Below, in pieces: positions 5,790 to 41,818 of a stretch of 41,818 bases of DNA (position 1 is its first letter; every line of letters begins with the position of its first letter). Below the pieces are notes generated by a model. It was not told the DNA's origin. It searched no databases and saw only the letters and a program-made list of their open reading frames with translations. The stretch is from an uncultured Candidatus Hydrogenedens sp. (GTDB lineage: Bacteria > Myxococcota > UBA4151). Location: assembly GCA_902574205.1 (NCBI GenBank), contig CACGMS010000001.1:1-41818 (forward strand), written 5' to 3'. Both the position numbers and the translations under genes were made by a program.

Positions 5790-6170
5790 ATGAATGATCA
5801 CGAGGACTTTAATCCACCGGCTGATCAAGAAGAAGATCGCAGCCTAGGGCGCAAGCTCTTGCGCACCGGTCTAGGCGCGTTATTGGTCTCTGAGAGCGTG
5901 GTTCGTGAAGTGGTTAAGGAGCTGCCAGCCGAGGCTGCGAATCGGTTAATGCAGGGCACCAAAGAGACCAAAAATGAGGTCATGAGGCTGGCCGGCGGTG
6001 AGGTGAAAAACTTTCTCGAACACCTGGACCTGGTCGGTATCTTCTCCGACGTCCTTGAGCGCATGGACATGGAGGTCGAGCTTAAAGTGCGGTTTACCCG
6101 AAACGAAGACGGTGACTTAGAGCCTCAAGTTGAGGTGGTTGAGGGGTCTGAACGCGCCTCGTCTGATTAG
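5790..6170 (+). CDS. Small acidic helical protein of unknown function, 126 aa
   Basis: No family recognised. The ATG at 5790 is chosen because GGAGG lies seven bases upstream. The protein has an acidic N-terminus, then a predicted helical stretch (residues about 20-85) containing RKLLRTGLGALLVSESVVRE. It ends in a short, strand-like region (MEVELKVRFTRN) with an acidic tail. There is no signal peptide. Hydrophobic helix plus acidic tail is reminiscent of surface-coating or scaffold proteins such as phasins, but there is no real evidence for that. It is divergent from the DUF3152 gene and its stop shares TTAG (6167-6170) with the convergent M60 gene. Confidence 0.65.
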   Translation: MNDHEDFNPPADQEEDRSLGRKLLRTGLGALLVSESVVREVVKELPAEAANRLMQGTKETKNEVMRLAGGEVKNFLEHLDLVGIFSDVLERMDMEVELKVRFTRNEDGDLEPQVEVVEGSERASSD

Positions 6171-8671
6171 CGCATGGGGTTCTCTTGCCACTCGGGTAGG
6201 TTCTGCAACGCGGTGCGAACGGCTGGCGTGATCGGAAAGCCCCAGGCTTCATAAAAGGGCACCAAGTTACGCTGCGTGTAGTTGCTGGTGCGCGTGATCC
6301 ATTCATCGATTCGGTCTTGAGCGCTGCCTTGGCTGGCGTTGCTCTCTTCGCGGTAGATGGTGAAGACGTCGGTAAAGAAGTCCCAGCCAAAGCCCTCTTG
6401 CAGCTGCAGATAGGTATCGAGCGCGACCCAGACGTTCCATGACTCGCTAAAGTTGGCGCCACCGTTGAGATAGGCTTGGCGGCGCTGTCTGCGCATCTGC
6501 GGACCGAGCCTTCCTTCTGTTCGAGTCGGCAGGTTGAGCAGGTTCTCGTGGATGTAGACGCTCCATAAATTGCAGCTGGCTTCTGTGCTTCCGGGTAAGA
6601 ACCAGTCGCGCCATTGATGGTTGTGCCCCAGCTCATGAAACGGTCCCCAGGAACCCTCAGCGCGGATATGCTCGAGATCGAGCAGGCCTTGGTGGTGTCG
6701 CAGGTGACCCATCATGGGGTAGCCCGAGTGCAGCGCACCAATGCTGATTTGTCGATCAAGCGCAAAGCGTTCCTTGCGCACTCGCTCGTGTGAGGTGCCT
6801 TCAAGGTCAGCCATAGCGTTGAGCACCTCATCCCAAAAGGTCATCAGCGCCACCGGGTCTTCGAGTTGACGAGCTTCTTCGGTCAGCACTGAGAAAGCCA
6901 CTCGGTCACCCTCAATTTCAGCCCACGGGGCGGGGTAGTCGCGCAGCTGACGCTGCCATTCTTGCGCGGTGGTGACGCCATGCTGGTAATGAGGCGCTCG
7001 CACGATCTGGTCGATGGTCACGGCGATGCGACCAACCTCGGTGTCTGCTGGCAGCAGCAGGTACACCGGACCACCAAAGGCGCTGGTCGCCTGGATGACG
7101 GCGTCGTTGACGGGGTAGCGCCGGATGATTTGGGGGAAGCGCTCGATGGACTCTTTGTTCCAGAGCCGGTCGCTGTGCGCACCGATTTGTATGCTCAAGC
7201 CCTCGCCGGCGGCGCGCTCGGGGACGGTAACGGTAAAGGTTTGCCCAGGCAGCGCGTAGGCGCCCGTGCTCAGCCGAACCGGCTGCCCAGCGCCGCTGGC
7301 GTTGTATTTGCGTGAGCGCCCTTCGTACGTCGCGTCGAGTTCAAGGCTGACCTCGGTCAGCGGTGTGCCCTCGGGGACTGTGCCGGGGAAGTCGGCGGCG
7401 GCCGGGTGGGCTTCAATTTGGTCAAACGGTGAGCCCGCGAGGAACTTGTCGACCAGGCGCAAGGTGAGCATCTTGAGTGGCTCATCGGCTGAGCGGATTG
7501 GATTGTCCTCTGTGGGGATCACCTCGGGGAGCGAGGGCATCAGCGCTCGAATCGGCTCGTAGTAGTCGGTGATCCATAAGTTGAGGTGGCTGATGGCGAA
7601 GGTGATGGTGGCGACGGCAGTCGCCTGGTCTTCGGCACTCAGGACCTCCTCGCCTGCGAGATGGCGCGCCACAGCGTACACGGCATAAAGGGCATGATCG
7701 ACCTCACCGAGCGTGGTCTCGGGTACAACCGCCGCCCCAGACTGTTGGTTGGCTTTGGTGATGGTGATGCCCGAGCCAAGGATGTTGCGGTTCCCAACAA
7801 AGTTGCGCACCGCTTGGAAGTTGTTACCGTTCCAATTCCAGGCAAAACCCGACTGAATTAAGCCACCGCCTTGGCGCACCCATTGGTTAAGCGCTGTGAC
7901 CTCTTCATCGCTGTACTCGGTGCGGGCGTTAGCAAAGTAGACGCTAACCTCTGCCAGCGCCTCGGCGCTGGGGCGAAAGGCGCTGACGTTGTGCCCGTCT
8001 TGGGTCATCAGGTTAGCGGTCCCACCAAAGAGACCGGGGTGCCTGCCGATGCGCAGGGTCTCTTGTCCGCGCGTCATCCACGACACGGCGTTGCGCACCA
8101 GTTGAACCCCGTCGTGGTTGTCGGCCCGCAGGTCGCGGTTCATGGGGTGCTCATGACCTGTCTGCAGGACTCGCCCGCGTCCGAGCCGAGCCGAAGCGAC
8201 GACGGTCTTTCCTTGGCGGTTGGTGATCAGCGGACAGGCGGTGCGTCCGTAGGTGATCAGGGCAGAAGGCCAGACCCGCTCGCCCATGACAAAGGCGTCG
8301 ACGCCCGCAAGCAAAGGGCGTTGATCGACGCTGCAGTCAAAGATGCAGCGCGGCGCTCGCGCCACTTGGTTCTCGCAGCGCCAGCGCTCAGCATTACCAC
8401 AGCCACCATTGTCCACCAGGCATTCATTGATATCGACGCATTCATCGCCTTGCCGCTCGGTGCCTTCGGGACACTCAACCCCTACGTCCTCGGCGGCGCC
8501 TGCATCGACGATCACGTCAGCGTCTGCCACGGTACTCGCGTCCACCGCGACAGCGGCGTCAGCGGGTGTGCCCGCGTCCAAAGTCGCGCCGCTATCAAGC
8601 GGGCTTGAGGGAACCTCGGTTTCGCCGCAGGCGGCGAACAGGACAAGACAGGATAGCCAGTGGATACGCAT
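6167..8671 (-). CDS. M60-family (enhancin/mucinase-type) metallopeptidase lipoprotein, 834 aa
   Basis: The peptidase M60 signature is clear: HELGHNHQW (H679, E680, H683) with a glutamate 14 residues after H683 (E697, in STEASCN) and the following N..S.Y pattern. M60 enzymes cleave heavily O-glycosylated proteins such as mucins. The N-terminus is a lipoprotein signal ending LFAAC, then an Asp/Ala-rich linker (residues about 20-65) and an EGF-like calcium-binding module (DINECLVDNGGCGN). A large domain precedes the catalytic part. The ATG at 8671 has GGGGA upstream; the frame extends four codons further to a TTG, which is less likely. The protein is probably displayed on the outer membrane. Its stop overlaps that of the convergent 5790 gene. 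The substrate is inferred from family only. Confidence 0.87.
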   Translation of the reverse strand: MRIHWLSCLVLFAACGETEVPSSPLDSGATLDAGTPADAAVAVDASTVADADVIVDAGAAEDVGVECPEGTERQGDECVDINECLVDNGGCGNAERWRCENQVARAPRCIFDCSVDQRPLLAGVDAFVMGERVWPSALITYGRTACPLITNRQGKTVVASARLGRGRVLQTGHEHPMNRDLRADNHDGVQLVRNAVSWMTRGQETLRIGRHPGLFGGTANLMTQDGHNVSAFRPSAEALAEVSVYFANARTEYSDEEVTALNQWVRQGGGLIQSGFAWNWNGNNFQAVRNFVGNRNILGSGITITKANQQSGAAVVPETTLGEVDHALYAVYAVARHLAGEEVLSAEDQATAVATITFAISHLNLWITDYYEPIRALMPSLPEVIPTEDNPIRSADEPLKMLTLRLVDKFLAGSPFDQIEAHPAAADFPGTVPEGTPLTEVSLELDATYEGRSRKYNASGAGQPVRLSTGAYALPGQTFTVTVPERAAGEGLSIQIGAHSDRLWNKESIERFPQIIRRYPVNDAVIQATSAFGGPVYLLLPADTEVGRIAVTIDQIVRAPHYQHGVTTAQEWQRQLRDYPAPWAEIEGDRVAFSVLTEEARQLEDPVALMTFWDEVLNAMADLEGTSHERVRKERFALDRQISIGALHSGYPMMGHLRHHQGLLDLEHIRAEGSWGPFHELGHNHQWRDWFLPGSTEASCNLWSVYIHENLLNLPTRTEGRLGPQMRRQRRQAYLNGGANFSESWNVWVALDTYLQLQEGFGWDFFTDVFTIYREESNASQGSAQDRIDEWITRTSNYTQRNLVPFYEAWGFPITPAVRTALQNLPEWQENPMR

Positions 8672-8745
8672 GGTGTTCCCCAAGGGGTTGAGCCAGCGCT
8701 AACTGCCACTCCCGGCTTTTGAGTGCAAGGCGCGTCACTTTGCTG

Positions 8746-9030: not shown

Positions 9031-9963
9031 TCAAGTTTCGTCGTAGCTGCGGATGAGCAAGGGTTTGGCACGTTCTAAATCGGCTAAACTTTTGATTGAT
9101 ATTTCAAGGTCGCCCGTTCCCCAGTGACCGACGTTTGTCACATCACGGGTAAAGCCATCAATGAGTTCGACCGTAGCTGGGTCAAGATTGACCCATACTC
9201 TTATCTGGCTTTTCATCGGTCGCATCGTCGCAAAGTTCTTTATCCTTCGATAAGCGACATAAAGTTGGGTCGATGTGCAGCTGACGTCATCGCCTAAGTT
9301 CAGAAGAAATTCATTGAAAGCAAAGTAAGTATCAGAAAGCTCGCCCGTAAGCTCATGCAGTACTTCAGTTACGGCTCGGTCTTTCTTTCGTGTCTTCTTT
9401 GACTTGTTTGGTTCGATTAAAAGCTGGGCGTCGGATCCACTCGGACTTAATGATTTGGTTTCGGTTCGATTGATCAAGTCCAAGAGCAAGAAGTCACTCC
9501 CGTAGCGCGTGTATCGAATGAGTTCGATATTACGATTGATTTGCGATGCGGCGTGTCGATCATACTTTTTGAAGTCGCCAGCGATACACAACAGACGAGT
9601 TCCAGCCCAATTAATTCCAGATGCAGATGAGGCGTCAATCTGTTCCATCACGAGTAACGTAAATTCGGCTTTATGGTCGAGCAGCCAGTCCAAATAGTAC
9701 AAGCCTTGGTTCATTACATTTTCATTAACCGTTCGCTTGTACTCAATAATCACCGGGCAACCATTTTCGTCGATACCCAACGTATCAATACGACCGCCAT
9801 GCTTAACGCCTGTGCTGTATTCACTCGCTAGGAATTTAATGCCTAGGAGTACCTCGAGATTTTTCTCCATCAGTGCTTGAAGTGACTTTTCGAGTGCAAC
9901 CGAAGAACCGATAATAAGTTCGACGTTGTCTCCCCGAGTTCTAAATAATTTGAGATTGCTCAT
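9031..9963 (-). CDS. PD-(D/E)XK nuclease-like protein, DUF5655 type, 310 aa
   Basis: The N-terminal half carries a PD-(D/E)XK-like core: GRIDTLG with D60, then PVIIEYKR with E74 and K76, the arrangement of NucS/DUF91-type and Holliday-type nucleases. A basic linker (KSKKTRKKDR, about 185-195) leads to a C-terminal domain of the DUF5655 type, with AYRRIKNFATMRP and a final stretch about GHWGTGDLEISIKS. Such proteins are often annotated as transporter homologues or unknown; the nuclease reading rests on the visible active-site residues. It is divergent from the mcrB gene, sharing a 158-base intergenic region, and its base composition is more AT-rich than the flanking genes. It sits directly after tRNA-fMet. 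A role in the defence island is inferred from context. Confidence 0.8.
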   Translation of the reverse strand: MSNLKLFRTRGDNVELIIGSSVALEKSLQALMEKNLEVLLGIKFLASEYSTGVKHGGRIDTLGIDENGCPVIIEYKRTVNENVMNQGLYYLDWLLDHKAEFTLLVMEQIDASSASGINWAGTRLLCIAGDFKKYDRHAASQINRNIELIRYTRYGSDFLLLDLINRTETKSLSPSGSDAQLLIEPNKSKKTRKKDRAVTEVLHELTGELSDTYFAFNEFLLNLGDDVSCTSTQLYVAYRRIKNFATMRPMKSQIRVWVNLDPATVELIDGFTRDVTNVGHWGTGDLEISIKSLADLERAKPLLIRSYDET

Positions 9964-10121
9964 AAGTCAGTCTCCACCAAACAGATTTCTGATATCCCTA
10001 TGATTTGACGGTTTTTGCAACCCAACGTCTGATCGCTTGCCCTTTTATTACTTGATGATGCAGGCTCGCCGGCGTTCAGCAAATGTTTATCATCTGCTGC
10101 TTTTAGAAAGACGAGTCTTTG

Positions 10122-12332
10122 ATGACAAAACCACAATATGAGCGGATTTTTGAGGGACTTGAAGCGTTCAAAAACTTCTGTTTGGTGAGCGACCAATCCT
10201 TGTTTGTCGATAACGCTGAAGTTTGGACGAGCGCTAACTTTGATGAGCTTTATCGACGTTTTAATGAAAATCCAGATGAGTCGAGCGCTTCGTTTGTTGA
10301 GAAACTGACCCGCCAAATGGCCGGTGTCGCCGATCCTGTTTTACAGTTGATGGCAGAAATCCTTTGGCTCCATTTTTGCGGCGCAGGCGATGTGTCTGGG
10401 GTTAAAAAGCGTGAACACATCAACCGCGTTCTTGGCTGGATGCAACACCCGGTCGCTATGCCCGAGCCATTAGACCAAGCATTGGAGACCGGACCGGCAA
10501 GCACTGGCGTTGCGTTTAATACCTACCGACCACAGCAGCTATGGTTTTTGATCAATTTTGGCCGAGCGTGGAAGAACTGCGATTCCGCTCGGGTCGATAA
10601 ACTCCTGAGCGATCCATGGGAGTTCAAAGCCTTTGTGTTCGCATTGGACGTAGAGAGCGCCTATTTGCAGCGCAATGCGCTTCTTCATTTACTGCACCCG
10701 CAGACTTTTGAGGCGATTTATTCGAGGAGTCATAAAGCACGAATTACCCAGTCTTTCGCTCATCTGGTGCCGGGTGGTGTAGACGATATCGACCGCCAAA
10801 TTCGAGTGATTGCAGACCGGCTGAATCAAGCACCAATACCCGAAGGAGCGACTGAGAGTTACAGCATTTTTTATCGTGATGATGTGGTGCAACGTTGGAA
10901 CAGTAAGCCTGAGTCTGAACGGATTGAAGGTGAGGGTCAGACCTCTGAAGCAAGGCGCAGTTATTGGCTTTATTCACCAGGTGAGAACGCGTTCGATTGG
11001 CAGCGCCAATATGAGGCAGGCGTCATGGCGATTGGCTGGAGTGATGTTGGTGATTTGAGGCGATTCAACTCGGCAGCTGAGATCGGTGAGGCGGTCGATG
11101 CAATTTATGCGAGTGGTGGAAAGAATCCGTACAATACCCGTTTAGCGCTCAGCGAAATTCGATTTGCTGCCAAACCGGGTGACGTGGTCATAGCCAAACG
11201 TGGGCGGCGCTTATTGCTTGGTGCAGGTATTATTACTGGTGACTATCGATTTGAGATCAATAACGATGAACACGGTCACGGCCATGAGGTTGCGGTTGAT
11301 TGGCACACTAAAGGCGAGTGGCTAGTGGACCATCACTTAGTGGTGAAGACATTAACTGATATTGGTAAATATCCTGGATATGGTGCCCACTTACTTGGCG
11401 ATATGGGTACTTCACCTGAGGACTTATTGGGTGATGCCGTTGTAGCTGCGGAAAGCAGTGATCATGTCACCGCCTACGCTCTAAAGGATGCACTTGATGA
11501 TCTGTTCATGGATCAAGATGACCTCGGATCCATGTTGTCTTTATTGCATACAAAAAAGAATCTTATACTCACGGGGCCACCAGGCACCGGCAAGACCTTC
11601 ATCGCCGAGCGGCTGGCTTATTTGTTAGCTCAGGAGCGTGATCCGGAGCGGGTCACACGAGTACAATTTCACCAATCGACGTCCTATGAAGACTTTGTTC
11701 AGGGCTATCGACCGTCGGCATCAGGTTTTGAACGACGTGACGGACCGTTTGTTCGGATTTGCTACCAGGCGGCGCAGGATGAACGCCCCCAGGTCTTGCT
11801 GATCGATGAAATCAATCGGGGTAATTTAAGCCGAATTTTTGGCGAAGCGATGATGCTGATTGAGAGCGACAAACGAGCCGAACAGTGGGCGACTCAACTT
11901 GCCTATGCGCAAGGCGGCGAGCCTGCCTTTTGGGTTCCGGAGAATGTATATATTATCGGCACGATGAACACAGCAGATCGATCCCTTGCGCTGGTTGATT
12001 ATGCCCTTCGGCGACGCTTCGCGTTCTTTCATATTGGACCGGCAGTCGATCACACTGGCTTTCATAAGCATTTGCGATCCAATGGCTTGTTGGCTGAGGA
12101 AGTCGATCGTTTGGTCGCTGCCATCCGAGAGGTTAATGATCTCATCAAAGACGACGCTAATTTGGGCGGAGGATTCTGCCTTGGGCACAGCTACTTCTGC
12201 GCGCTGTCCAACTTAGATAATGACCTGCCACAACTCATCGAGCATGAACTTGCGCCGCTCTTGCGCGAGTATTGGTTTGACGACACCGAGCGCGCCGACG
12301 CTGCAGTCAGGATTTTTGAGCGTGTGGTCTAG
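10122..12332 (+). CDS. mcrB: McrB-like GTPase/AAA+ subunit with EVE-type domain, 736 aa
   Basis: Residues about 1-270 form a helical domain I do not recognise. Residues about 279-415 look like an EVE/PUA-like domain (YWLYSPGENAFDWQ, GVMAIGWSDVGDLRRF, PGDVVIAKRG), a module that reads modified bases. From about 470 an AAA+ motor of the McrB clade follows. It shows Walker A GPPGTGKT (about 485-492), FHQSTSYEDFVQGYRP, Walker B VLLIDEINRG (about 558-567), the McrB signature IGTMNTADRS (about 611-620) and arginines in ALRRRF. McrB translocates DNA for the McrC nuclease in type IV, modification-dependent restriction. mcrC follows after 16 bases. The recognised modification cannot be told. The start ATG at 10122 has a weak purine-rich site. 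Confidence 0.92.
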   Translation: MTKPQYERIFEGLEAFKNFCLVSDQSLFVDNAEVWTSANFDELYRRFNENPDESSASFVEKLTRQMAGVADPVLQLMAEILWLHFCGAGDVSGVKKREHINRVLGWMQHPVAMPEPLDQALETGPASTGVAFNTYRPQQLWFLINFGRAWKNCDSARVDKLLSDPWEFKAFVFALDVESAYLQRNALLHLLHPQTFEAIYSRSHKARITQSFAHLVPGGVDDIDRQIRVIADRLNQAPIPEGATESYSIFYRDDVVQRWNSKPESERIEGEGQTSEARRSYWLYSPGENAFDWQRQYEAGVMAIGWSDVGDLRRFNSAAEIGEAVDAIYASGGKNPYNTRLALSEIRFAAKPGDVVIAKRGRRLLLGAGIITGDYRFEINNDEHGHGHEVAVDWHTKGEWLVDHHLVVKTLTDIGKYPGYGAHLLGDMGTSPEDLLGDAVVAAESSDHVTAYALKDALDDLFMDQDDLGSMLSLLHTKKNLILTGPPGTGKTFIAERLAYLLAQERDPERVTRVQFHQSTSYEDFVQGYRPSASGFERRDGPFVRICYQAAQDERPQVLLIDEINRGNLSRIFGEAMMLIESDKRAEQWATQLAYAQGGEPAFWVPENVYIIGTMNTADRSLALVDYALRRRFAFFHIGPAVDHTGFHKHLRSNGLLAEEVDRLVAAIREVNDLIKDDANLGGGFCLGHSYFCALSNLDNDLPQLIEHELAPLLREYWFDDTERADAAVRIFERVV

Positions 12333-12348
12333 TTTTCAGAAAGTCGAC

Positions 12349-13413
12349 ATGACACATGATTCGGCGCCGAGCGCCGTACCCATTGATAATCTTTATTATC
12401 TGCTCTGCTACGCGACCAAATCATTGGCGACTCTCAAGCAGGTGCCCACTGGTGCAATCGATGGGCCGACGCCGGCGCGGTTATATGCCGCTGTGCTTGA
12501 CGAGGGCTTGGCGCGGTTACGGCGGCGCGGCTTTCCAAAACGGTACCGAGAGCGTCGAGAGCTAACCTCAACACCAAGAGGTCGGATTAATGTTGCCACC
12601 ACCTTGGCTCGAGGTTTGCTTGTTCGCCGCCAAGTTGATTGCACAGTCTCTGAGCTGATTCATGATCATGCGATCAACAGAGCCCTTAAAGCGGCAGTTC
12701 GATGGTTGGCACCCCATCGAGGATTGTCAAAGGAGCGTCAGGCTCGACTTAGACGACACGTTCAGATCCTTGGCTCGGTTGCAGACCAGCCCCTTCGAGA
12801 GATTGATTTGCACCTCGCAACGCATGGGCAGCGACTCGATCCGTTGATTCGTTTCTTATTGCAGATCGTGCGTATGGTTCAGATGGCGGCTTTGGTTCAC
12901 CCTGATGGTTCGAGCGCTCACTTCTTTGATGTGCGGCGAAGCCCTCAGCAAATGGGACTTATATTCGAGAGCTTCCTCTATGAATTTTATAAGCGCGAGC
13001 AGGCTGAGTTTCGGGTTAAGGCGCCGCATCTGAATTGGCGCGTCGATCAAGAGGAGAGCGATGACATCGTTGACCTGCCGACGATGCGAACGGATGTGGT
13101 TCTTGAATGTGCTGATCAGCGCATATTGATCGAAGCCAAATGCACGGGCTCGATGATGGCATCGAATCAAGGCGGCCGTCGTAAACTGCGCTCAGATCAC
13201 CTGTATCAACTGACTAACTACATGCGCCATATCGTTCATGACCGCCCAACGGTTGGAGTTTTACTTTACGCACAATGCGGAGCCCCTTTGAGTCGAAGTT
13301 ATCTTATTGATGGTCAGCGTATCGTCGTCGAGTCGATCGATCTGAGTCTACCTTGGCAGCAGATACACGCGGCGACATTGGATATCGTCAACCGAGTGAG
13401 GGTAAAATTCTGA
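12349..13413 (+). CDS. mcrC: McrC-like restriction endonuclease subunit, 354 aa
   Basis: The N-terminus (PIDNLYYLLCYA) and the segment ending TPRGRINV are characteristic of McrC family proteins. The C-terminal third has the PD-(D/E)XK nuclease core: RTDVVLE (D at about 248) followed by ILIEAKC (E262, K264). McrC cuts DNA when driven by the McrB ring. The ATG at 12349 follows the mcrB stop by 16 bases; a longer open frame begins at 12220 but would overlap mcrB heavily. The stop at 13413 is only 25 bases from the stop of the convergent lipoprotein gene, with no clear terminator. A short related copy of its nuclease motif survives at 17441-17503. Confidence 0.92.
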   Translation: MTHDSAPSAVPIDNLYYLLCYATKSLATLKQVPTGAIDGPTPARLYAAVLDEGLARLRRRGFPKRYRERRELTSTPRGRINVATTLARGLLVRRQVDCTVSELIHDHAINRALKAAVRWLAPHRGLSKERQARLRRHVQILGSVADQPLREIDLHLATHGQRLDPLIRFLLQIVRMVQMAALVHPDGSSAHFFDVRRSPQQMGLIFESFLYEFYKREQAEFRVKAPHLNWRVDQEESDDIVDLPTMRTDVVLECADQRILIEAKCTGSMMASNQGGRRKLRSDHLYQLTNYMRHIVHDRPTVGVLLYAQCGAPLSRSYLIDGQRIVVESIDLSLPWQQIHAATLDIVNRVRVKF

Positions 13414-28327: not shown

Positions 28328-29589
28328 AGTCGCTAGCGTGTCTTTTGGTGCTCACTTTTACGCTTGTATTTCCTTTGCAATCTGCCGAAGCAAAGCGACG
28401 ACGAGGACAGCGCACCCGTATCGCCAAACCGCAGCCTGCCAACTATTGTCAGATGAGTGGGGTGAATTGTGACAACGCTGAACAAGGTATTGCCGAGGCA
28501 TTAGATGATTGGGCAGCACAATCAGCTGGTCAACAGCCGGCTGTGACGCACTCATCCATGACCCCTTTGGTCAAGATCGAACTCGGTAAAGAGCTTGCCA
28601 AAGCATTCCTACTTCCATCGACAGCGATCGAATCGATAAGTGGTGACCAGACGAACCTAAATTTGTCGATTGATTTGAATTACAATCCAACCAGTTCAAT
28701 CCGACGACTCAACACCGTACTCAAGAAGCATTTCAGCAGATGGGCAGTTGGTGGCGAACAGATCTGCTTTGCAGGTCCTGCGCGAACCAGCGATCCTTCA
28801 AGCGGTATTTTGTACCGACAAGGTTATAAGACGGTCAATGAAGATCAAATCCTTACGGCTTTAGGCATAAACCCGTTAGCACTTTCGCCATACAATATGT
28901 TGGACGTGTGGCTGTCTGACGGAAAGGTCACCTATGAACAAGAAAAAGTGGGTGATAAGTTGTGGGCGGTATTAGAATCGAGTTTGGATTCAGGCCGTAG
29001 TGTACGACTGCAGTTGGATCCGGCACCATCCAAACGCCCCGTTGAGCTTCAACTCAAGACGGTGGAAGGGGAAACGATCACAATGAAGGTGGGTTTGGAC
29101 GGAGCGCGTCAATCGGTCACTGTCCCAGAAGACGCACAATGGCGTGTGATACCTGGTAATTTCCAAGTCTCTCTTAACCGGAAATTCGAGGCGCAAGAGG
29201 CATTGCTTCAGCAAGTCGTTGCCGGCGGCAACACCGCAAAAAAAGATGGGACCATACTCCTTCGAGCACAAGACTGGGCCATACGATCAGACGATTATGA
29301 GGCGATCTACAAAGATGCCCAAGCTATTCATCTCCATCTTCACGGAAACGGTGGCGCTTGGTTCGGAATGAAAAAATTTGCTGTTGGAGCAACGATGCGC
29401 GCCTCACGCTCTCGATATGGATGCGACCTTTTAATCGAGATTATTCCCAAACTAGAACCGGTGGAACTCGGAGGCATAACGCTTGCCGAAGCCGGACAAA
29501 TTACCGGTGTTACGGCGATTGATCCGGTTGAGGTTGCTGTGGATATCGGTTATCTAGAGCAACCGTATTGTGGCGGGCCGATCCGATAA
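28324..29589 (+). CDS. Secreted protein of unknown function, second gene of surface operon, 421 aa
   Basis: A signal peptide (LACLLVLTFTLVFPLQSAEA) is followed by a basic stretch (KRRRGQRTR) and a cysteine pair (YCQMSGVNC). The body is alpha/beta with LNLSIDLNYNPTSSIRRLNT, VRLQLDPAPSKRPVELQLKT and a His-containing segment AIHLHLHGNGGAW. Two C-terminal cysteines lie around RYGCDLLIEI and EQPYCGG. No lipobox, no catalytic motif and no family match. The start ATG overlaps the previous stop, and its own stop overlaps the next start (TAATG, 29587-29591). The 'R-N/S-tail' phrase DLNYNP resembles DVEVDYRN in the preceding protein, so the two could be distant relatives, but this is a guess. Confidence 0.68.
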   Translation: MKSLACLLVLTFTLVFPLQSAEAKRRRGQRTRIAKPQPANYCQMSGVNCDNAEQGIAEALDDWAAQSAGQQPAVTHSSMTPLVKIELGKELAKAFLLPSTAIESISGDQTNLNLSIDLNYNPTSSIRRLNTVLKKHFSRWAVGGEQICFAGPARTSDPSSGILYRQGYKTVNEDQILTALGINPLALSPYNMLDVWLSDGKVTYEQEKVGDKLWAVLESSLDSGRSVRLQLDPAPSKRPVELQLKTVEGETITMKVGLDGARQSVTVPEDAQWRVIPGNFQVSLNRKFEAQEALLQQVVAGGNTAKKDGTILLRAQDWAIRSDDYEAIYKDAQAIHLHLHGNGGAWFGMKKFAVGATMRASRSRYGCDLLIEIIPKLEPVELGGITLAEAGQITGVTAIDPVEVAVDIGYLEQPYCGGPIR

Positions 29590-31277
29590 TGTGTAGGCTG
29601 TCTTTTAGCTTGTTAATCATGGTTGTGCCCGTATCGGCTTCGGCTGGAATCTTAGTGGTGAATACCAACCCAAAAGTTTCAGTACCTATCCAAGTCGATG
29701 GAATCGATCGCGGCGTAACCCCGCTGACTTGGCCTGGGTGTTCAAAAGGTCGTCATCAAGTGACGATCGATCACCCCGACTACAGCGCAAAGCCGATAAC
29801 AGTCGTCTGTAAGGCTGCCGGTCTGACACGAGCGACCATCAATCTTAAGAGTCAGCGTTGGACACTCAAACTCAGTTCATCGCCATCCAAATTGAACGTG
29901 TTTGTCAACGAGCAGAAGGTGTGTGTCACCCCCTGCTCCCACAGTGGTAAAGGTAAACAAAATCTCAAAATCGATATGCGCTCGCCAGACAACCTTTTAG
30001 TCAGTTTGGGTATGAGTTCAACGCGTCGAATCCGCATCTCATCGGGCATAGAAAAGGCGGTGAAAATTAGCATCCCTCATGGCTTTATTGCATTGAAGCG
30101 AGCGACAGATTTAGGCCAGCTCAAAATCAACGGCACCGTCACACTTGGTGAAGAGGCAATAGCGATTCCCACTGGCCGATATCAAATCGTACTCGATTAC
30201 GATTCGAAAACCCGTGATCCCAGCCGTGTTCCGTCGTGGGTTAGCCGAAAGATTTCAGTCAAGCGCAACAAACTTATTAGGATTGCACCACCTCTTTTGC
30301 GCCGAGTCAGACCCGCTTCGATTAACCTGAGCGCACCAGCGCAATGGGTCAGTGTATTTGTAGATGGTAATAGGCTGACAACAAAGCGACTGCGCCTGCG
30401 TCCTGGTCAGGTCGAATTAACGGCTAAGTTACCCAACTCATTTTATAAGGCAGATTGGCTGACCAAAACGATCAGGCTTACCGAAGGCAAAAGACATCTG
30501 ATTGTACCCCCGGTTGTTCAGCGACTACCGCATGGCGCTGTTGTGTTATCTGAACAGAGTGAATACGGTACAATCAAATTAGCCGAGAGCAGCCAGTTGG
30601 ATACATCAATCCAATCTCCTCTCCTATCGGCAAACAAGGACGGCGAAGTCTACCTCAAACCGGGGCAATACGAAGCACGATTGGTTGATGTGCCCGTTGC
30701 GCAAAGAGCGAGTTGGAACACCAAAAAATTTACCATCAAAGATGGTGAAACCGTCGCGATAAAGCCTCCGAATTTTGCGTTGGCGCCAGCGACGTTGATG
30801 GTCAAACTCTCACCGTCTGACGCGCAAGTTGTTGCGAACAACACAATACTCGGTCCTGTGCCCGTAGAGGGGCTTGAATTACCCGCCGTTGCGACTCGGC
30901 TTGAGTTTCGTAAGTCAGGCTACAAGCCAAAGCGAGTTCGTGCCAACCTCAAGCCGGGGAAGCCCCTGCAACTCGAGCCGATTGTGCTGCGCCGACTCGG
31001 TATGACCGATAACGTTCCCGGCGGTTTGGCGACGACTTTAATGAGCGGGGCAGTATTGGCAGCAGGTGTGGGTAGTGTCATGTATGCTGGTCAATTGCGT
31101 TCCGAATATACGGGGTTGTGGGAAACAGGCGGCAACCGAGCGCGTCAAGAAGAACTCTACGAACAACATCAATCGATTTATCCGGTGGCGATGGGCCTAA
31201 TTTCGGTCGGAACACTTGGGGCAACTTGGGTGGGTTATCGCTTGTTCAAAGCACCGGCTGTAGGCATCGATGATTAG
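29589..31277 (+). CDS. PEGA-domain protein with C-terminal two-helix membrane tail, 562 aa
   Basis: A signal peptide ([15 protein letters not shown]) is followed by a PEGA-type domain ([19 protein letters not shown]...[20 protein letters not shown]). Further beta-sandwich repeats follow, including [30 protein letters not shown] and [18 protein letters not shown]; four to five such modules make up most of the chain. Near the C-terminus are two hydrophobic helices (about 478-500 and 530-552) separated by about 30 polar residues, a membrane hairpin. PEGA domains are common in surface and cell-wall proteins. The ATG at 29589 overlaps the preceding TAA; its stop lies just before the ribosome site of the next gene. 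A 90-bp copy of its 3' end recurs at 34310. Confidence 0.8.
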
Positions 31278-31514
31278 AGGAGCACTGCGTATGAAACGGT
31301 TGCTCGTTGGCTGGGTTCTACTCAACTCGTGCGGACTCGCCCCAATGCCAGGAGAGCCACGCTATTGCGGAGATAAAAAAATACAAACATCACTCGAAGA
31401 GGAGTGTGATGACGGTAATGACATCGATACCGATTCTTGCACCCACTGTCGTGTTGCTCGCTGCGGTGACGGTCACGTTCAAGCGGTTCGTGGTGAGGCG
31501 TGTGATGATGGCAA
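31185..31514 (+). repeat. Segmental duplication, copy 1
   Basis: About 330 bases covering the 3' end of the PEGA gene, the ribosome site and the first 75 codons of the lectin-headed lipoprotein gene. By eye it differs from copy 2 (34310-34640) at about eight positions and one indel. Confidence 0.92.
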
Positions 31515-34098
31515 TTCGGACGAGAGCGATGCCTGCACTTCGTTATGCGCCCCCCCAAGGTGTGGTGACGGAATACACAGCGAAGGCGAAAACTGTGATG
31601 ATGGCAACACGAGTGACTTCGACGACTGTATTGCCGGCTGTCACCGGGCAAGTTGCGGTGATGGCTTTACACATGAAGGCGTAGAAGAGTGTGACGACGG
31701 AAACTCGGTCAATACAGATAGCTGCATAGACAACTGCCTTCAGGCGCGTTGCGGCGACGGCTTTGTTGGACCGGGTGAAGAGTGTGATGATGCCAATGAA
31801 GAGCAAACAGACGCCTGCCTCGACACCTGTGTAAATGCTCGCTGCGGTGACGGTTTTGTTGGTCCAGGGGAAGCGTGCGATGATGGAAATGATGATGAAC
31901 TTGATGAGTGTACGACCGCCTGTGCATTGGCTTCGTGTGGAGACGGTCATGCTCAAGAGGGCGAGGAATGCGATGATGGCAATAACGATGAAAACGATGC
32001 GTGCTTAAACAGTTGTCTAGAAGCACGGTGTGGTGATGGTGTATTGCGTGAAGGCCTGCCGCGGGGTGCTGAAGGCTATGAAGCATGCGATGATGGGAAC
32101 CTCGTCGAATCTGATGATTGTCTTCAAGATTGCGTGCGTGCTACCTGCGGTGACGGTTTTCTTCGGGTGGGTTTTGAGACTTGTGATGACGGCAACGCGA
32201 TTGATTCTGATTTATGTACCAACCGTTGTCACACGGCGCGGTGCGGCGATGGTGTTCAGCGACTTGATTTAGGGCCCGATGAGGAAGGCTATGAGGCTTG
32301 CGACGACGGTAATCTCGATGAGTTTGATGCTTGCCGTGGCACCTGCGTTGAAGCTGCTTGCGGTGACGGAGTGCGTCGTGAAGACCTAGCGCCCGATGAG
32401 GCGGGCTATGAAGCCTGTGACGATGGTAACGATATTGATAGCGATGCATGTCCGAGCAATTGTCAGGATGCTCGCTGTGGTGATGGTTATGTGCGTGATC
32501 TGCGCGTCGGACAATGGCGCTACGAGGAATGCGATGACGGCAATGAAGATAATACGGATGCTTGCGTCGAGGACTGTCGCTTAGCACGCTGTGGTGATGG
32601 TCACGTTCAGGCAGGCGTTGAAGCCTGCGACGATCGGAATTACAGTAACCGCGATGCCTGCACCAACGCTTGCGAGGTTGCGCGTTGCGGCGATGGCATC
32701 GTGCGCTATGGCGGATTCGAAGATTGCGACGATGGAAATCGAGTTGAAACAGACTGGTGCCGCAACAACTGTCAGCGCGCACGCTGCGGCGATGGTGTGG
32801 TTCACCTCGGCGTTGAAGAATGCGATGACGAAAACGAAGTGCAGACCGATGCTTGTACCAATAGGTGCCGGTCAGCGAGCTGCGGTGATGGGCACATTCA
32901 AGAAGGTGTTGAGATCTGTGATGACGGCAATGTGAGTGATACCGATGCCTGTCGGGGTGATTGCTTAGCCGTAGCTCGCTGCGGTGATGGCATCATCCGG
33001 GGGGACCTTAGTCATCTGGAAGAAGGCTTTGAAAATTGCGAAGATGGTAATCAGGTCCCTGACGATGGTTGCACGGATTGCCGCGCAGGGGTTTGCGGTG
33101 ATGGTCACGTCGATCCTGGAGAACCCTGCGACGATGGTAATGAGATCGAGAGCGATGCCTGCACTTCGCTGTGCCTCACTGCGAGGTGCGGTGACGGTAT
33201 TCTTCGCCTTGGTCTCAATGATGATGAACCCGATTACGAGGCCTGTGATGATGGGAACGAAACCAATTACGATGCGTGCCTGAACGACTGTACGGTCGCT
33301 CGCTGTGGCGACGGCTTTCTGCGAGAAGACCTCGTTCAAGGTGAGCTTGGCTGGGAAATTTGTGATGACGGCAACCAACAAAATTTTGATGGTTGTCTTA
33401 ACACATGTCAGCCACACCGGTGCGGCGATGGTATTGTGCAACAAGGCGTCGAGGTGTGCGATGACGGCAACCAAGCAAATTTTGATGGTTGTCTTAACAC
33501 ATGTCAGCCACACCGATGCGGCGATGGTATTGTACAAGAAGGTGTCGAGGCTTGTGACGATGGAAACAATAATCCGCAAGACGGTTGCCAACAATGTCGT
33601 CAGAGCAACTGCGGAGACGGCATTGTTCAAGGTAATGAAACCTGTGATGACGGCAACCAAAACAACAATGATGGTTGTTTAATCAATTGCATTGTTTTCA
33701 ATTGCGATACGGAATTTTCGCGGCACGTAATAGGAAACTCAGTGTACTGGCGCTGCGGCGAGGGCGTCTCACTATCGACTGCTCGCGCAAGGTGTCGAAG
33801 TGCGAACTGGGAACTTGCTGAGATACCAAATTCTGAAACCAATGACGCACTAAGGGCGCTCGCAGTCAGTGGCCCTGTACAGAATACGGAGGATGACAAC
33901 CGTCATCGATGGATTGGCTTGGACTATCGTGGTGGATGGCGCTGGGACACCGGTAATCCTGTGACTTGGCAGGCGAGATGGGTGCACGAAGGAGAAGCAA
34001 GACATCGCAATGCAACCGTCTTGCATACAGATGGTCGCTGGTACGGTGCCGGGGTGGGATTTAGATCTGGATTTTTCTGCCAAGAGATTTCTGAGTAG
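31291..34098 (+). CDS. DUF4215 x23 stalk with C-type lectin head, lipoprotein, 935 aa
   Basis: Start ATG 31291 has AGAGGAG upstream; the signal ends in the lipobox LLNSC. Residues about 25-800 are 23 DUF4215 units with all four cysteines kept. The last 130 residues (from about 805) form a C-type lectin-like domain: [47 protein letters not shown], and a final FFCQE. CTLD heads bind glycans or proteins. It is the fourth gene of the operon and probably the displayed one. Units 20-22 are nearly identical, a recent 96-bp duplication. The first 330 bases including the upstream end are duplicated before a second gene at 34417 with another head, and a decayed copy of its 3' end lies at 15690. Confidence 0.9.
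33384..33575 (+). repeat. Recent 96-bp tandem duplication in the DUF4215 array
   Basis: Two adjacent 96-base units (from 33384 and 33480) share TGATGGTTGTCTTAACACAT and most of the rest. They encode [20 protein letters not shown] twice. Confidence 0.85.
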
Positions 34099-34200
34099 GG
34101 GTATCGCTGTTTATCGTTAGGCGGTCATTCTGCTAAAATCTAACTTTGATACCTACGGATCGACAACGCTGCTAACTCGGCCGACCCGCCCGGTCAGGGC

Positions 34201-34251
34201 AAGGTGGGGTGGTCGTTCCTGCCGCCACTCGCTACAATCATGGCGAGGATG
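34201..34251 (+). repeat. Flanking direct repeat, left copy
   Basis: GGTGGGGTGGTCGTTC at 34203-34218 is followed by a related segment. Without gaps about 40 of 51 positions agree with 36281-36331, and both copies are preceded by GGCCGACCC. The two copies bracket the RCC1-headed lipoprotein gene. Confidence 0.75.
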
Positions 34252-34256
34252 AACCA

Positions 34257-34319
34257 TGACCCGACCGACCAAGCTCAACGCCAAACGCGTCCAGCCAATC
34301 TACGACTACGTGGCGATGG
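34257..34319 (+). pseudogene. N-terminal fragment of a small DNA-binding-like protein
   Basis: The frame from ATG 34257 reads MTRPTKLNAKRVQPIYDYVA and then crosses into the duplicated PEGA 3' end. The opening resembles the first helix of small helix-turn-helix or terminase-small-subunit-like proteins (RPTKL...R...I.D.V..G). It is cut at GTGGCGATGGG, the point where the duplication begins. Family assignment is tentative. Confidence 0.4.
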
Positions 34320-34640
34320 GTCTAATTTCGCTCGGAACACTTGGGGGCAACTTGGGTGGGTTATCTCTTGTTCAAAGCACCGGTTGTAGACATCGATGAT
34401 TAGAGGAGCATTGCGTATGAAACGGTTGCTCGTTGGCTTGGTTCTACTCAACTCGTGCGGACTCGCCCCAATGCCAGGAGAGCCACGCTATTGCGGAGAT
34501 AAAAAAATACAAACATCACTCGAAGAGGAGTGTGATGACGGTAATGACATCGATACCGATTCTTGCACCCACTGTCGTGTTGCTCGCTGCGGTGACGGTC
34601 ACGTTCAAGCGGGTCGTGGTGAGGCGTGTGATGATGGCAA
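34310..34640 (+). repeat. Segmental duplication, copy 2
   Basis: This copy of 31185-31514 has one extra G in the PEGA part, which breaks that reading frame. The PEGA end is thus only passenger sequence, and the lipoprotein start is intact. Confidence 0.92.
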
Positions 34641-36186
34641 CCGAAATGATTTAGACGGCTGTCGTAATACGTGTGCGGTTGCGATCTGCGGTGATGGTGT
34701 TGTGCGAGCAGGCGAAGAGCAATGCGATGATGGCAACCGGGTGGATACCGATGTTTGTCTCAACAACTGTCAGCAGGCACGTTGTGGCGACGGGGTGGTG
34801 CGAGTCGGCGTTGAAGGGTGTGATGATGGTAATAATATTGACGACGACCGCTGCAACAACAACTGCGCAACCACAACCTGTGGCGATGGAATCATCCAGG
34901 CGAGCGCTGGCGAGGTCTGTGACGATGGCAATACCGAAGATGCCGACGCATGTACCAACGCGTGTCAGGCGGCTACATGTGGCGATGGGATTGCCCGCAT
35001 GGATCTAACCGAGGACGACGACGGTTATGAAACGTGCGATGATGCGAACCTGAGCAATGCGGACGCGTGCACGAACGGTTGTCAGTTAGCGGTTTGCGGC
35101 GATGGTTATGTCCGCGCCGGACTTGAGGCTGGCGACGAGGGCTATGAAGCCTGCGATGATGGCAATACCGAGGAGACAGACGCCTGTCTGAATGCTTGTC
35201 TTTTGGCGAGCTGCGGCGACGGGTTTGCACGCCGAGACTTGCAGCCTGAACACCCTGATTACGAATACTGTGACGACGGCAACGATAACAATACGGATCA
35301 ATGTTTAGCGAATTGTCGTGTCGCAAGCTGCGGTGATGGTTTTCTCCAGGCAGGAGAGGCTTGTGATGACGGCAATCAAGTCGATGCCGACGCCTGCACA
35401 AACGGTTGTCAACTTCGCGGTGTCGCCGAGATCAGCGCTGGTTTCCTTCACAGTTGCGCTCGGTTTCATTCTGGCGCCGTCAAATGCTGGGGTTATAACT
35501 ATTACGCTCAACTTGGCGACGGCACTCGCACTAACCGCACAACTTCGGTCAGGGTCAGAGGGATCACCGCAGCGACCAAGATCGCTGCTGGTGCGGATTA
35601 CAGCTGCGCGCTCCTTGAGTCTGGCGCCGTCCAATGCTGGGGGAGGAACAGTGTCGGTCAACTCGGCGACGGCACTCGCAGGATGAGCGGAACCCCGGTC
35701 AGCGTCAGCGGGATCACCGCAGCGACCGAGATCGCTGCTGGTCGTGATCACAGCTGCGCGCTCCTTGAGTCCGGCGTCGTCCAATGCTGGGGGGGGAACT
35801 ATGAGGGTCAACTCGGCGACGGCACTAGCAGGGACCGCATCACTCCGGTCAGCGTCAGCGGGATCAGAGCAGCAACCAAGATCGCTGCTGGTAATGGTCA
35901 CAGTTGCGCGCTTCTTGAGTCCGGCGCCGTCCAATGCTGGGGGGGGAACCGATCCGGTCAACTCGGCGACGGCACTCTCATGGACAGCAACACTCCGGTC
36001 AGCGTCAGCGGGATCAGAGCAGCAATCAAGATCGCTGCTGGTTATGGTCACAGTTGCGCACGGCTTCAAGACGACGACGACTTGTTTTTGGTCAAATGCT
36101 GGGGATATAATGCTTATGGTCAACTTGGCGACGGCACTAGCAGGGACCGCATCACTCCGGTCAGCGTCATTTTGATGGATGAATAG
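34417..36186 (+). CDS. DUF4215 x9 stalk with RCC1-repeat head, lipoprotein, 589 aa
   Basis: The first 75 codons are almost identical to those of the lectin-headed gene, including signal peptide, LLNSC lipobox and the first DUF4215 unit. After that the chains diverge. Nine DUF4215 units (to about residue 335) lead into five RCC1-type repeats of exactly 50 residues (CWGxNxxGQLGDGT...PVSVSGI.AATKIAAG..HSCALLESGAVQ). The last unit has a four-residue insertion and stops abruptly at VILMDE. A closed RCC1 propeller normally has seven blades, so the head may be incomplete, may dimerise, or may be shrinking by recombination. Start ATG 34417 with AGAGGAG. Whether it has its own promoter is unclear. Confidence 0.88.
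   Translation: MKRLLVGLVLLNSCGLAPMPGEPRYCGDKKIQTSLEEECDDGNDIDTDSCTHCRVARCGDGHVQAGRGEACDDGNRNDLDGCRNTCAVAICGDGVVRAGEEQCDDGNRVDTDVCLNNCQQARCGDGVVRVGVEGCDDGNNIDDDRCNNNCATTTCGDGIIQASAGEVCDDGNTEDADACTNACQAATCGDGIARMDLTEDDDGYETCDDANLSNADACTNGCQLAVCGDGYVRAGLEAGDEGYEACDDGNTEETDACLNACLLASCGDGFARRDLQPEHPDYEYCDDGNDNNTDQCLANCRVASCGDGFLQAGEACDDGNQVDADACTNGCQLRGVAEISAGFLHSCARFHSGAVKCWGYNYYAQLGDGTRTNRTTSVRVRGITAATKIAAGADYSCALLESGAVQCWGRNSVGQLGDGTRRMSGTPVSVSGITAATEIAAGRDHSCALLESGVVQCWGGNYEGQLGDGTSRDRITPVSVSGIRAATKIAAGNGHSCALLESGAVQCWGGNRSGQLGDGTLMDSNTPVSVSGIRAAIKIAAGYGHSCARLQDDDDLFLVKCWGYNAYGQLGDGTSRDRITPVSVILMDE
35440..36170 (+). repeat. Exact 150-bp tandem repeats encoding RCC1 blades
   Basis: GGCGACGGCACT recurs at 35515, 35665, 35815 and 35965 (spacing exactly 150) and at 36127 (162). 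Units share long identical stretches. ACTAGCAGGGACCGCATCAC occurs in both the third and the fifth. Confidence 0.92.
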
Positions 36187-36280: not shown

Positions 36281-36331
36281 TCGGTGGGGTGGTCGTTCGC
36301 GCCTCCGCTCGCTCCGATCACGGCGACAATG
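36281..36331 (+). repeat. Flanking direct repeat, right copy
   Basis: Partner of 34201-34251, same orientation, between the end of the RCC1-headed gene and the convergent glycosidase gene. Confidence 0.75.
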
Positions 36332-40362: not shown

Positions 40363-41088
40363 GTGCGTTTCAGGTCGATTGTAACTCTTTTGGTCGCGAT
40401 GGCGCTGTGCTTGACCTCGGCTGATATCGCCCTTGCTCATGCTCCAAGCGCAATGGGGACCAGCCATTATCTCCTCGTGGCTAAGCGGAAAAAGCTTAAA
40501 AAACGAAAGAAGCGTAGGAAAAAGCGAGCGCGGAAAAAGCGCAGAAAAAAGAAGAAGAGAGCGACTAAGCGCCGCTCGAAATCAAAGCGCAAATCAAAGA
40601 AGAAGGACGCCAAACCACAAAGCGAGGTGAAGCCCGTAGAGACAAAGCCTAGTCAAGAGTCCGAGTCAGGTTCTGAGGTCAAAGCCGTCGATCAAGCGGT
40701 CGCGCCACCGTCGCCAGAACAACCTGCTGAACAGATCGGTTCAACTGAGGTGAAACCAGCCAGCGCAGCAGCTTCGACGGCGGCTCGTGCAGGTACAGAA
40801 GTTGGTAGTCCGCAGACCGCTCGATCTGGACGATCAGATTGGATCACCTACTCAGGACTTGGGTTAGCGATCACAGGCTTGGGCACAGCCGTCATGGGGT
40901 GGAGTATGATCGATGCTGCCAATGAAAACCGCCAATCCCTAGGTACTCAAGCGGTATGGAGCGACACGCAGCGTAGCGAGTTTGCCCAAAGCGGAGCCGA
41001 TCACGCCTTAGGGACGCAACTTAATGCAGCGGGCTATGCCCTTGGTTTGCTTGGCACGGGTATCGTGCTCGGAGCCTGGTTACCATGA
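40363..41088 (+). CDS. Exported polybasic protein with two-helix membrane tail, 241 aa
   Basis: The GTG at 40363 follows a GGGG site. A signal peptide ([20 protein letters not shown]) is followed by an extraordinary Lys/Arg run (about residues 41-82, nearly all K and R) and a Glu/Pro/Ser-rich linker. Two hydrophobic helices (about 160-183 and 220-241) separated by about 36 polar residues form a C-terminal membrane hairpin. The next gene, a DUF4215 lipoprotein, starts inside its stop codon (ATGA, 41085-41088). The tail arrangement and the partner match the PEGA gene at 29589-31277. The polybasic part could bind acidic polymers (LPS, DNA, acidic exopolysaccharide). No family recognised. Confidence 0.75.
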
Positions 41089-41818
41089 ACCGTTTTCGAT
41101 GGACGCTCCTCGTCTTGATGAGCTGCAGCGCGCCCTTAGCGCCGGTAATTCCTCCGTGTTCCAGTGATACCGATTGTACCACTGAGGTGCTGGGCGATGA
41201 CTATGAGCGCTTTGTCTGTCGAGGCGGACTCTGCCAGCCAGCGGCTCGTCCGGACGCTCCGGATACGGGCATCATCGCGGATACAGGTGTCGGTGTCGAT
41301 GCAGGATCTAATTCGGACACGGGTGGGGCGCTCGACGTTGGCGTTTCTTCTGACGCGGCGGGCTTTGAAGATGCTGGTGAGCAGGACGCTGATGTTCAGC
41401 TACCCGCCTTTTGCGGCAACGGCCGAGTCGAGGAAGGCGAGGAATGTGACGACAGCAATCGTATCGACACCGATCAGTGTACCAACTCATGTACAGAGGC
41501 GGTCTGCGGCGACGGCATTTTGCAGATCGGTGAAGAGGAATGTGATGATGGCAATCAGGATGATACCGATGCCTGCCTCAGTGGCTGCGAAACGGCACGC
41601 TGTGGTGACGATTATGTCTGGAATGGGGTAGAAACCTGTGACGACGGCAACCGCGTTCGAAGTGACGCGTGCACCAATGCTTGTGAAGAAGCAGTCTGTG
41701 GTGATGGTATCCGCCGTACGGATATCGCCGAAGGTCAACCCGATTACGAAGCCTGCGATGATGGTGACCAAGACGATGACAACGAGTGCAGTAACACCTG
41801 TATCGCTAGTCCGTCGTA
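41085..41818 (+). CDS. DUF4215-repeat lipoprotein, partial (runs off window)
   Basis: The frame from ATG 41085 is open to the window end. It encodes a signal peptide ending VLMSC (lipobox), a short cysteine segment ([16 protein letters not shown]) and an Asp/Ala/Gly linker (about residues 50-100, many DTG/DAG). DUF4215 units follow: [50 protein letters not shown] and [20 protein letters not shown] in turn. It overlaps the stop of the preceding gene by four bases, so the two are coupled. The head domain, if any, is outside the window. By analogy with the other loci it may carry a lectin or RCC1 head, but this is not seen. Confidence 0.88.

Follow-up and report, generated by a model that had tools for sequence, protein, structure and literature searches.

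Gene 2, a lipoprotein gene with a stalk of DUF4215 units and a head of RCC1 blades, is in our judgement quite probably a natural chimera that formed by non-reciprocal ectopic recombination within the large DUF4215 family of stalk lipoproteins, and this chimera is most likely a single fixed accident rather than a switch. The gene lies in the window analyzed here, bases 1-41818 of contig C1 (112 kb), which belongs to a 2.02-Mb genome in 141 contigs that is about 60% complete (G000); the nearest genomes used for comparison were G001 (same genus) and G002 (same family). DNA comparison with the rest of the genome divides gene 2 into a part matching its upstream neighbor gene 1 up to position 34640, a stretch of stalk matching gene 3, which lies 9 kb downstream, and a remainder (Table 1). 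Across the 142 DUF4215 ORFs of the three genomes, the two matching tracts are the only DNA common to different genes at >90% identity over 200 bp, the next pair (C74/C64) reaching 81-86%, and this concentration in one gene counts in favor of a chimeric origin. A previous sequence-only reading described the start common to genes 1 and 2 and missed the gene 3-like tract, and with it the three-part mosaic.

Table 1. Features of the chimeric lipoprotein locus, with positions in the window unless a contig is named
Feature	Position	Strand	Description and evidence
PEGA-domain gene upstream of gene 1	29568..31277	+	PF08308 E=5e-13; last 93 nt form the block's left part
Source copy of block	31185..31514	+	PEGA tail, RBS GAGGAG, start codon 31291, signal peptide, lipobox, first stalk unit; alignment
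Gene 1, lipoprotein	31291..34098	+	23 DUF4215 units and C-type-lectin-like head; translation, profiles
Gene 1 head, Lectin_C-like	33706..34095	+	Lectin_C E=7.1e-10
Derived copy of block	34310..34640	+	97.3% identical, extra G near 34343-34348; alignment, BLAST
Gene 2, probable chimeric lipoprotein	34417..36186	+	9 DUF4215 units and RCC1 blades, intact frame; translation, profiles, DNA comparison
Gene 2 tract common with gene 3	34621..34836	+	Two stalk units; C1:43224-43439 (outside window), ~95% identical
Junction interval GATGGCAA	34633..34640	+	Within CDDGN codons
RCC1 head of gene 2	35420..36183	+	RCC1_2/RCC1 profiles; 150-bp blades (35426-36169) 78-86% alike in DNA
Start of gene 3	41085..41818, continues to C1:44309	+	DUF4215 stalk, headless, own unrelated leader

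Genes 1 and 2 both encode tandem cysteine-rich acidic units that fit the DUF4215 profile PF13948 (E=3e-103 and 3e-42, respectively) and TIGR02232 (E=2e-116 and 2e-43), preceded by a signal peptide with a lipobox cysteine that reads MKRLLVG(W/L)VLLNS-C by inspection. The C[DE]D.N motif occurs 23 times in the translation of gene 1 and 9 times in that of gene 2, and these counts together with the head profiles bear out the claim that a 23-unit stalk with a C-type lectin head stands beside a 9-unit stalk with RCC1 blades. The gene 1 head scores 40 bits against Lectin_C (curated cut-off 22.6) and by inspection lacks the canonical calcium/sugar motifs (EPN or QPD, WND); another lectin head of the same genome, L043:1507-1920, has QPD and WND. 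The likeness among the RCC1 blades of gene 2 suggests recent blade amplification or homogenization. The window also contains an M60 (enhancin-like) peptidase gene at 6167-8683, and a McrB-like AAA ATPase paired with a McrBC component at 10119-13413 that is adjoined on the other strand by a DUF5655/NucS-like protein at 9031-9963. A short tandem repeat gatgctggcacgagc is present in the region after gene 3 (L027:2700-2790, C1:44499-44589).

One of the two proposed exchanges is visible as a copied block that covers the PEGA gene's 3′ end and the beginning of gene 1. Pairwise alignment of the two copies gives 97.3% identity over 331 columns (554 bits by BLAST), with 8 substitutions (31196, 31206, 31240, 31258, 31264, 31285, 31313 and 31487) and one extra G in a G-run of copy 2, in agreement with the near-identical starts claimed from the sequence alone, which had been credited with about eight substitutions and one indel. 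Both edges are sharp and identity collapses there into unrelated flanking sequence, so the likeness of the copies is far beyond chance. The block occurs in exactly two copies in the genome searched and places the same RBS, signal peptide, lipobox (LLNS-C) and first stalk repeat ahead of two different proteins. At copy 2 the PEGA tail is non-coding, with nothing known encoded, yet it remains ~94% identical to copy 1, and the likeness therefore reflects recent copying rather than selection. Codon-level comparison finds 2 changes/224 in the coding DNA of the leader block, both amino-acid changing and with 0 of 50 synonymous sites altered, against 6/106 in its non-coding DNA (Fisher p=0.015). At copy 1 the PEGA frame is intact, and at copy 2 it survives as a fragment put out of frame by the extra G, which supports copy 1 as the source and a copy direction from the operon outward; the proposals that the 3′ end of the PEGA gene had been dragged along, that an extra G had broken its frame, and that copying ran in this direction all hold up on this evidence. 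The PEGA gene itself has no good match among 195 genomes of the phylum, the gene 1 lectin head has no match in G001 or G002, and a search for the ancestral state found no close orthologs of either.

The trace of the other exchange follows the copied block. Gene 2 still has the base of gene 1 at 34632 and has those of gene 3 starting at 34641, which places the switch between these positions, within 8 nt of codons for CDDGN, the motif of every stalk unit. The gene 3-like tract likewise terminates in CDDGN codons, two 96-nt units on, and joining at this motif preserves both the reading frame and the unit spacing; because the motif codons fill ~15% of a unit, the placement of the junctions there could be due to chance. 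BLAST aligns gene 2 past the block with C1:43210-43438 at 93% over 232 columns including edges, and beyond ~34836 the best genome matches of gene 2 are only 65-76% identical. A tandem duplication of the whole of gene 1, with later loss or replacement of all that followed the first unit in the second copy, would account for the adjacency of genes 1 and 2 on the same strand and for the inclusion in the block of DNA upstream of the start codon. We nevertheless regard it as unlikely, given that gene 2 after its first unit is no closer to gene 1 than to other family members and that the piece after this unit resembles gene 3; a subsequent replacement of this kind would in any case still be ectopic recombination at the stalk. 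The best head partner of gene 2 in G002 (C46) is 41% identical and has an unrelated leader, which would fit leader replacement in the genome of the window, a weak indication because RCC1 heads are common.

Base differences between gene 2 and gene 3 point to selection acting on both stalks. All eight differences over positions 34641-34830 are synonymous, an outcome with a probability near 1e-5 in the absence of selection by our own arithmetic (~23% of sites synonymous), and the first amino-acid difference appears at 34831. Purifying selection thus seems to have acted on the stalks of genes 2 and 3 since their divergence, and because changes in this tract are restricted to synonymous sites, gene 2 is probably functional. 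The leader shows less synonymous difference than the gene 2/gene 3 tract (~8 of ~45 sites), and these small counts suggest that leader capture came second, after the exchange with gene 3. The order of events is inferred, as are the mechanism and the surface location and function of the gene 2 protein.

The same differences bear on whether gene 2 could be a product of a misjoined or mixed-strain contig, as might arise in a draft genome of 141 contigs that is ~60% complete and rich in repeat-containing genes. The block copies differ at 8 sites and an indel and have unique flanks, the frame of gene 2 is kept with only synonymous differences from gene 3 in the tract, and genes 1 and 3 have only 8 exact nt in common at the junction, which would be too short for an ordinary assembler misjoin. 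An assembly artifact at gene 2 is unlikely because of this short junction and because both tracts differ from their partners, and we give this explanation the least credence of those considered here. Against the chimeric reading, an empty site or a close relative with the gene 2 head was not found for comparison, and additional identical copies may be missing from so fragmented an assembly. We considered collapsed repeats as a place where such copies could be concealed and rejected the idea of many collapsed copies, since stalk DNA is not overrepresented at contig ends (6/44 ends compared to 13.7% of bases).

A chimeric gene 2 would be explained by two exchanges. In one, probably the older, genes 2 and 3 would have been left with two stalk units in common; in the other, ~330 bp comprising the PEGA gene's 3′ end and the beginning of gene 1 would have been copied onto the front of gene 2 and joined in frame within CDDGN motif codons. 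The RCC1 protein would now be started and lipid-anchored through the leader of gene 1, because the copied piece carries the RBS, signal peptide, lipobox and first unit. The right edge of the piece coincides with stalk-motif homology and the left edge with little or none (GTGGCGATGGG, resembling CGDG motif codons), and as the probable mechanism we favor either microhomology template switching during repair or homology-facilitated illegitimate recombination involving a fragment of DNA. We rejected insertion of a mobile element, as neither inverted ends nor a transposase was seen at gene 2 and nothing related to the intergenic DNA preceding gene 2 occurs elsewhere. A direct repeat flanks gene 2 (34203-34251 and 36283-36331, 82-84% alike); it was considered as an insertion boundary and is not claimed as one because it is found nowhere else in the genome. 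A short open frame MTRPTKLNAKRVQPIYDYV at 34256-34312 runs in frame into the copied PEGA tail and may be a truncated gene start, a candidate that we set aside when a full copy was not found. A promoter scan around gene 2 gave nothing above shuffled sequence.

The wider DUF4215 family provides the setting in which to judge whether the locus varies the cell surface. We identified 51 DUF4215 ORFs in 615 kb read from the genome of the window, 36 in the stretches from G001 and 55 in those from G002, with the heads of the 51 including RCC1, fibrinogen/COLFI-like, C-type lectin, FGE-sulfatase-like (sulfatase-modifying-factor-like) and unassigned domains and some ORFs being headless. A leader of the form C-x-EQVVVRE-x-x-A-x-CGNG is common to ~30 DUF4215 genes across the three genomes (G000 L027-L066; G001/G002 L082-L161), where it precedes fibrinogen/COLFI-like, glycine-rich and other heads. 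The sequence-only reading proposed that a common anchor is reused for different heads, and this proposal holds in a slower form for the EQVVVRE class, an old paralogous group whose pairings look stable, but does not extend to the two-copy leader of the block. Among 25 reciprocal-best head pairs from the three genomes with both starts visible, 4 pair EQVVVRE with EQVVVRE, 21 pair other with other and 0 are mixed, where the class 'other' is broad and certain genes enter two pairs. Free assortment would predict ~7 mixed pairs by our own arithmetic, and their absence indicates that anchors and heads tend to stay together over genus-level time. The remaining close repeats sit inside single genes, as in the stalk of C61, which contains an 828-bp tandem duplication at 88% identity (L034:8536-10170).

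These family data weigh against an active surface-variation system in which frequent recombination would move a shared leader cassette between heads and display alternative heads. The diversity of heads in the family would suit such a system, as would the direct orientation of the two leader copies, whose 173 nt of perfect identity could recombine to delete 3,126 bp and so place the RCC1 head in the PEGA operon. However, the leader cassette that had been claimed to be reusable is present in just two copies in the genome and in none in G001, G002 or the genome-contig scan; matches to it in the two relatives are stalk units with unrelated leaders, and an all-against-all DNA comparison of DUF4215 contigs from the three genomes revealed no other recently shared leader. 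No silent leaderless cassettes were found, and DUF4215 lipoprotein ORFs with their start on the contig have their own leaders. Matches to tyrosine recombinases (PF00589) occur only on C4, C28 and C16 and not on C1, no recombinase was detected among the 20 window proteins scanned, and suitable inverted repeats flanking the genes were not found in the region. With heads that keep their anchor class in the relatives, the surface-variation system put forward in the sequence-only reading is highly unlikely. It is also very unlikely that the leader copies form an active hot spot, at which crossover in the 173-nt identity would replace the lectin head with the RCC1 head in the PEGA operon and repeated DUF4215 stalk exchange would yield a population in which one anchor carries varied heads.

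A single chimera-forming accident cleanly illustrates, in nature, the way in which surface proteins with repeat stalks can be rebuilt. The motif present in every unit can act as an in-frame joining point, and a start and lipid anchor can therefore be transplanted before another head with the protein left unbroken. The locus also draws attention to a little-studied family, with about 50 ORFs in the DNA read from one genome and no paper found under the name DUF4215 in the library searched. Genes 1 and 2 are by profile members of the DUF4215 (PF13948)/TIGR02232 myxo_disulf_rpt group of cysteine-rich acidic repeat proteins and do not differ from it in kind, gene 2 being probably a recent chimera of members. 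The class of event is ordinary, namely the formation of a chimeric gene through ectopic recombination within a repeat family, here in unusually clear form.

The Vpma proteins of Mycoplasma agalactiae are a surface lipoprotein family in which 5′ regions are common to different proteins. Vpma switching requires the adjacent dedicated recombinase Xer1 (PMC2268961), whereas no such recombinase was found near this locus and the shared region is a two-copy block. In BadA of Bartonella henselae, the repetitive stalk of a surface protein is a substrate for recombination between neighboring homologous arrays (PMC8859334), a likeness to the stalk reshuffling proposed here; BadA, however, is a trimeric autotransporter that varies between isolates and lies beside pseudogenes, whereas gene 2 belongs to a lipoprotein family and would record one event. 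Homology-facilitated illegitimate recombination joins a DNA piece through homology at one end and little or none at the other (PMC3240628), and by analogy the homologous end here would be the stalk codons, with the difference that the donor lies 3 kb away on the same chromosome. The kin-recognition receptor TraA of Myxococcus likewise uses cysteine-rich repeats to carry a recognition head on the cell surface (PMC3325183), but combines TIGR04201 repeats with a PA14 head and MYXO-CTERM, where genes 1 and 2 combine TIGR02232 repeats with a lipid anchor and other heads.
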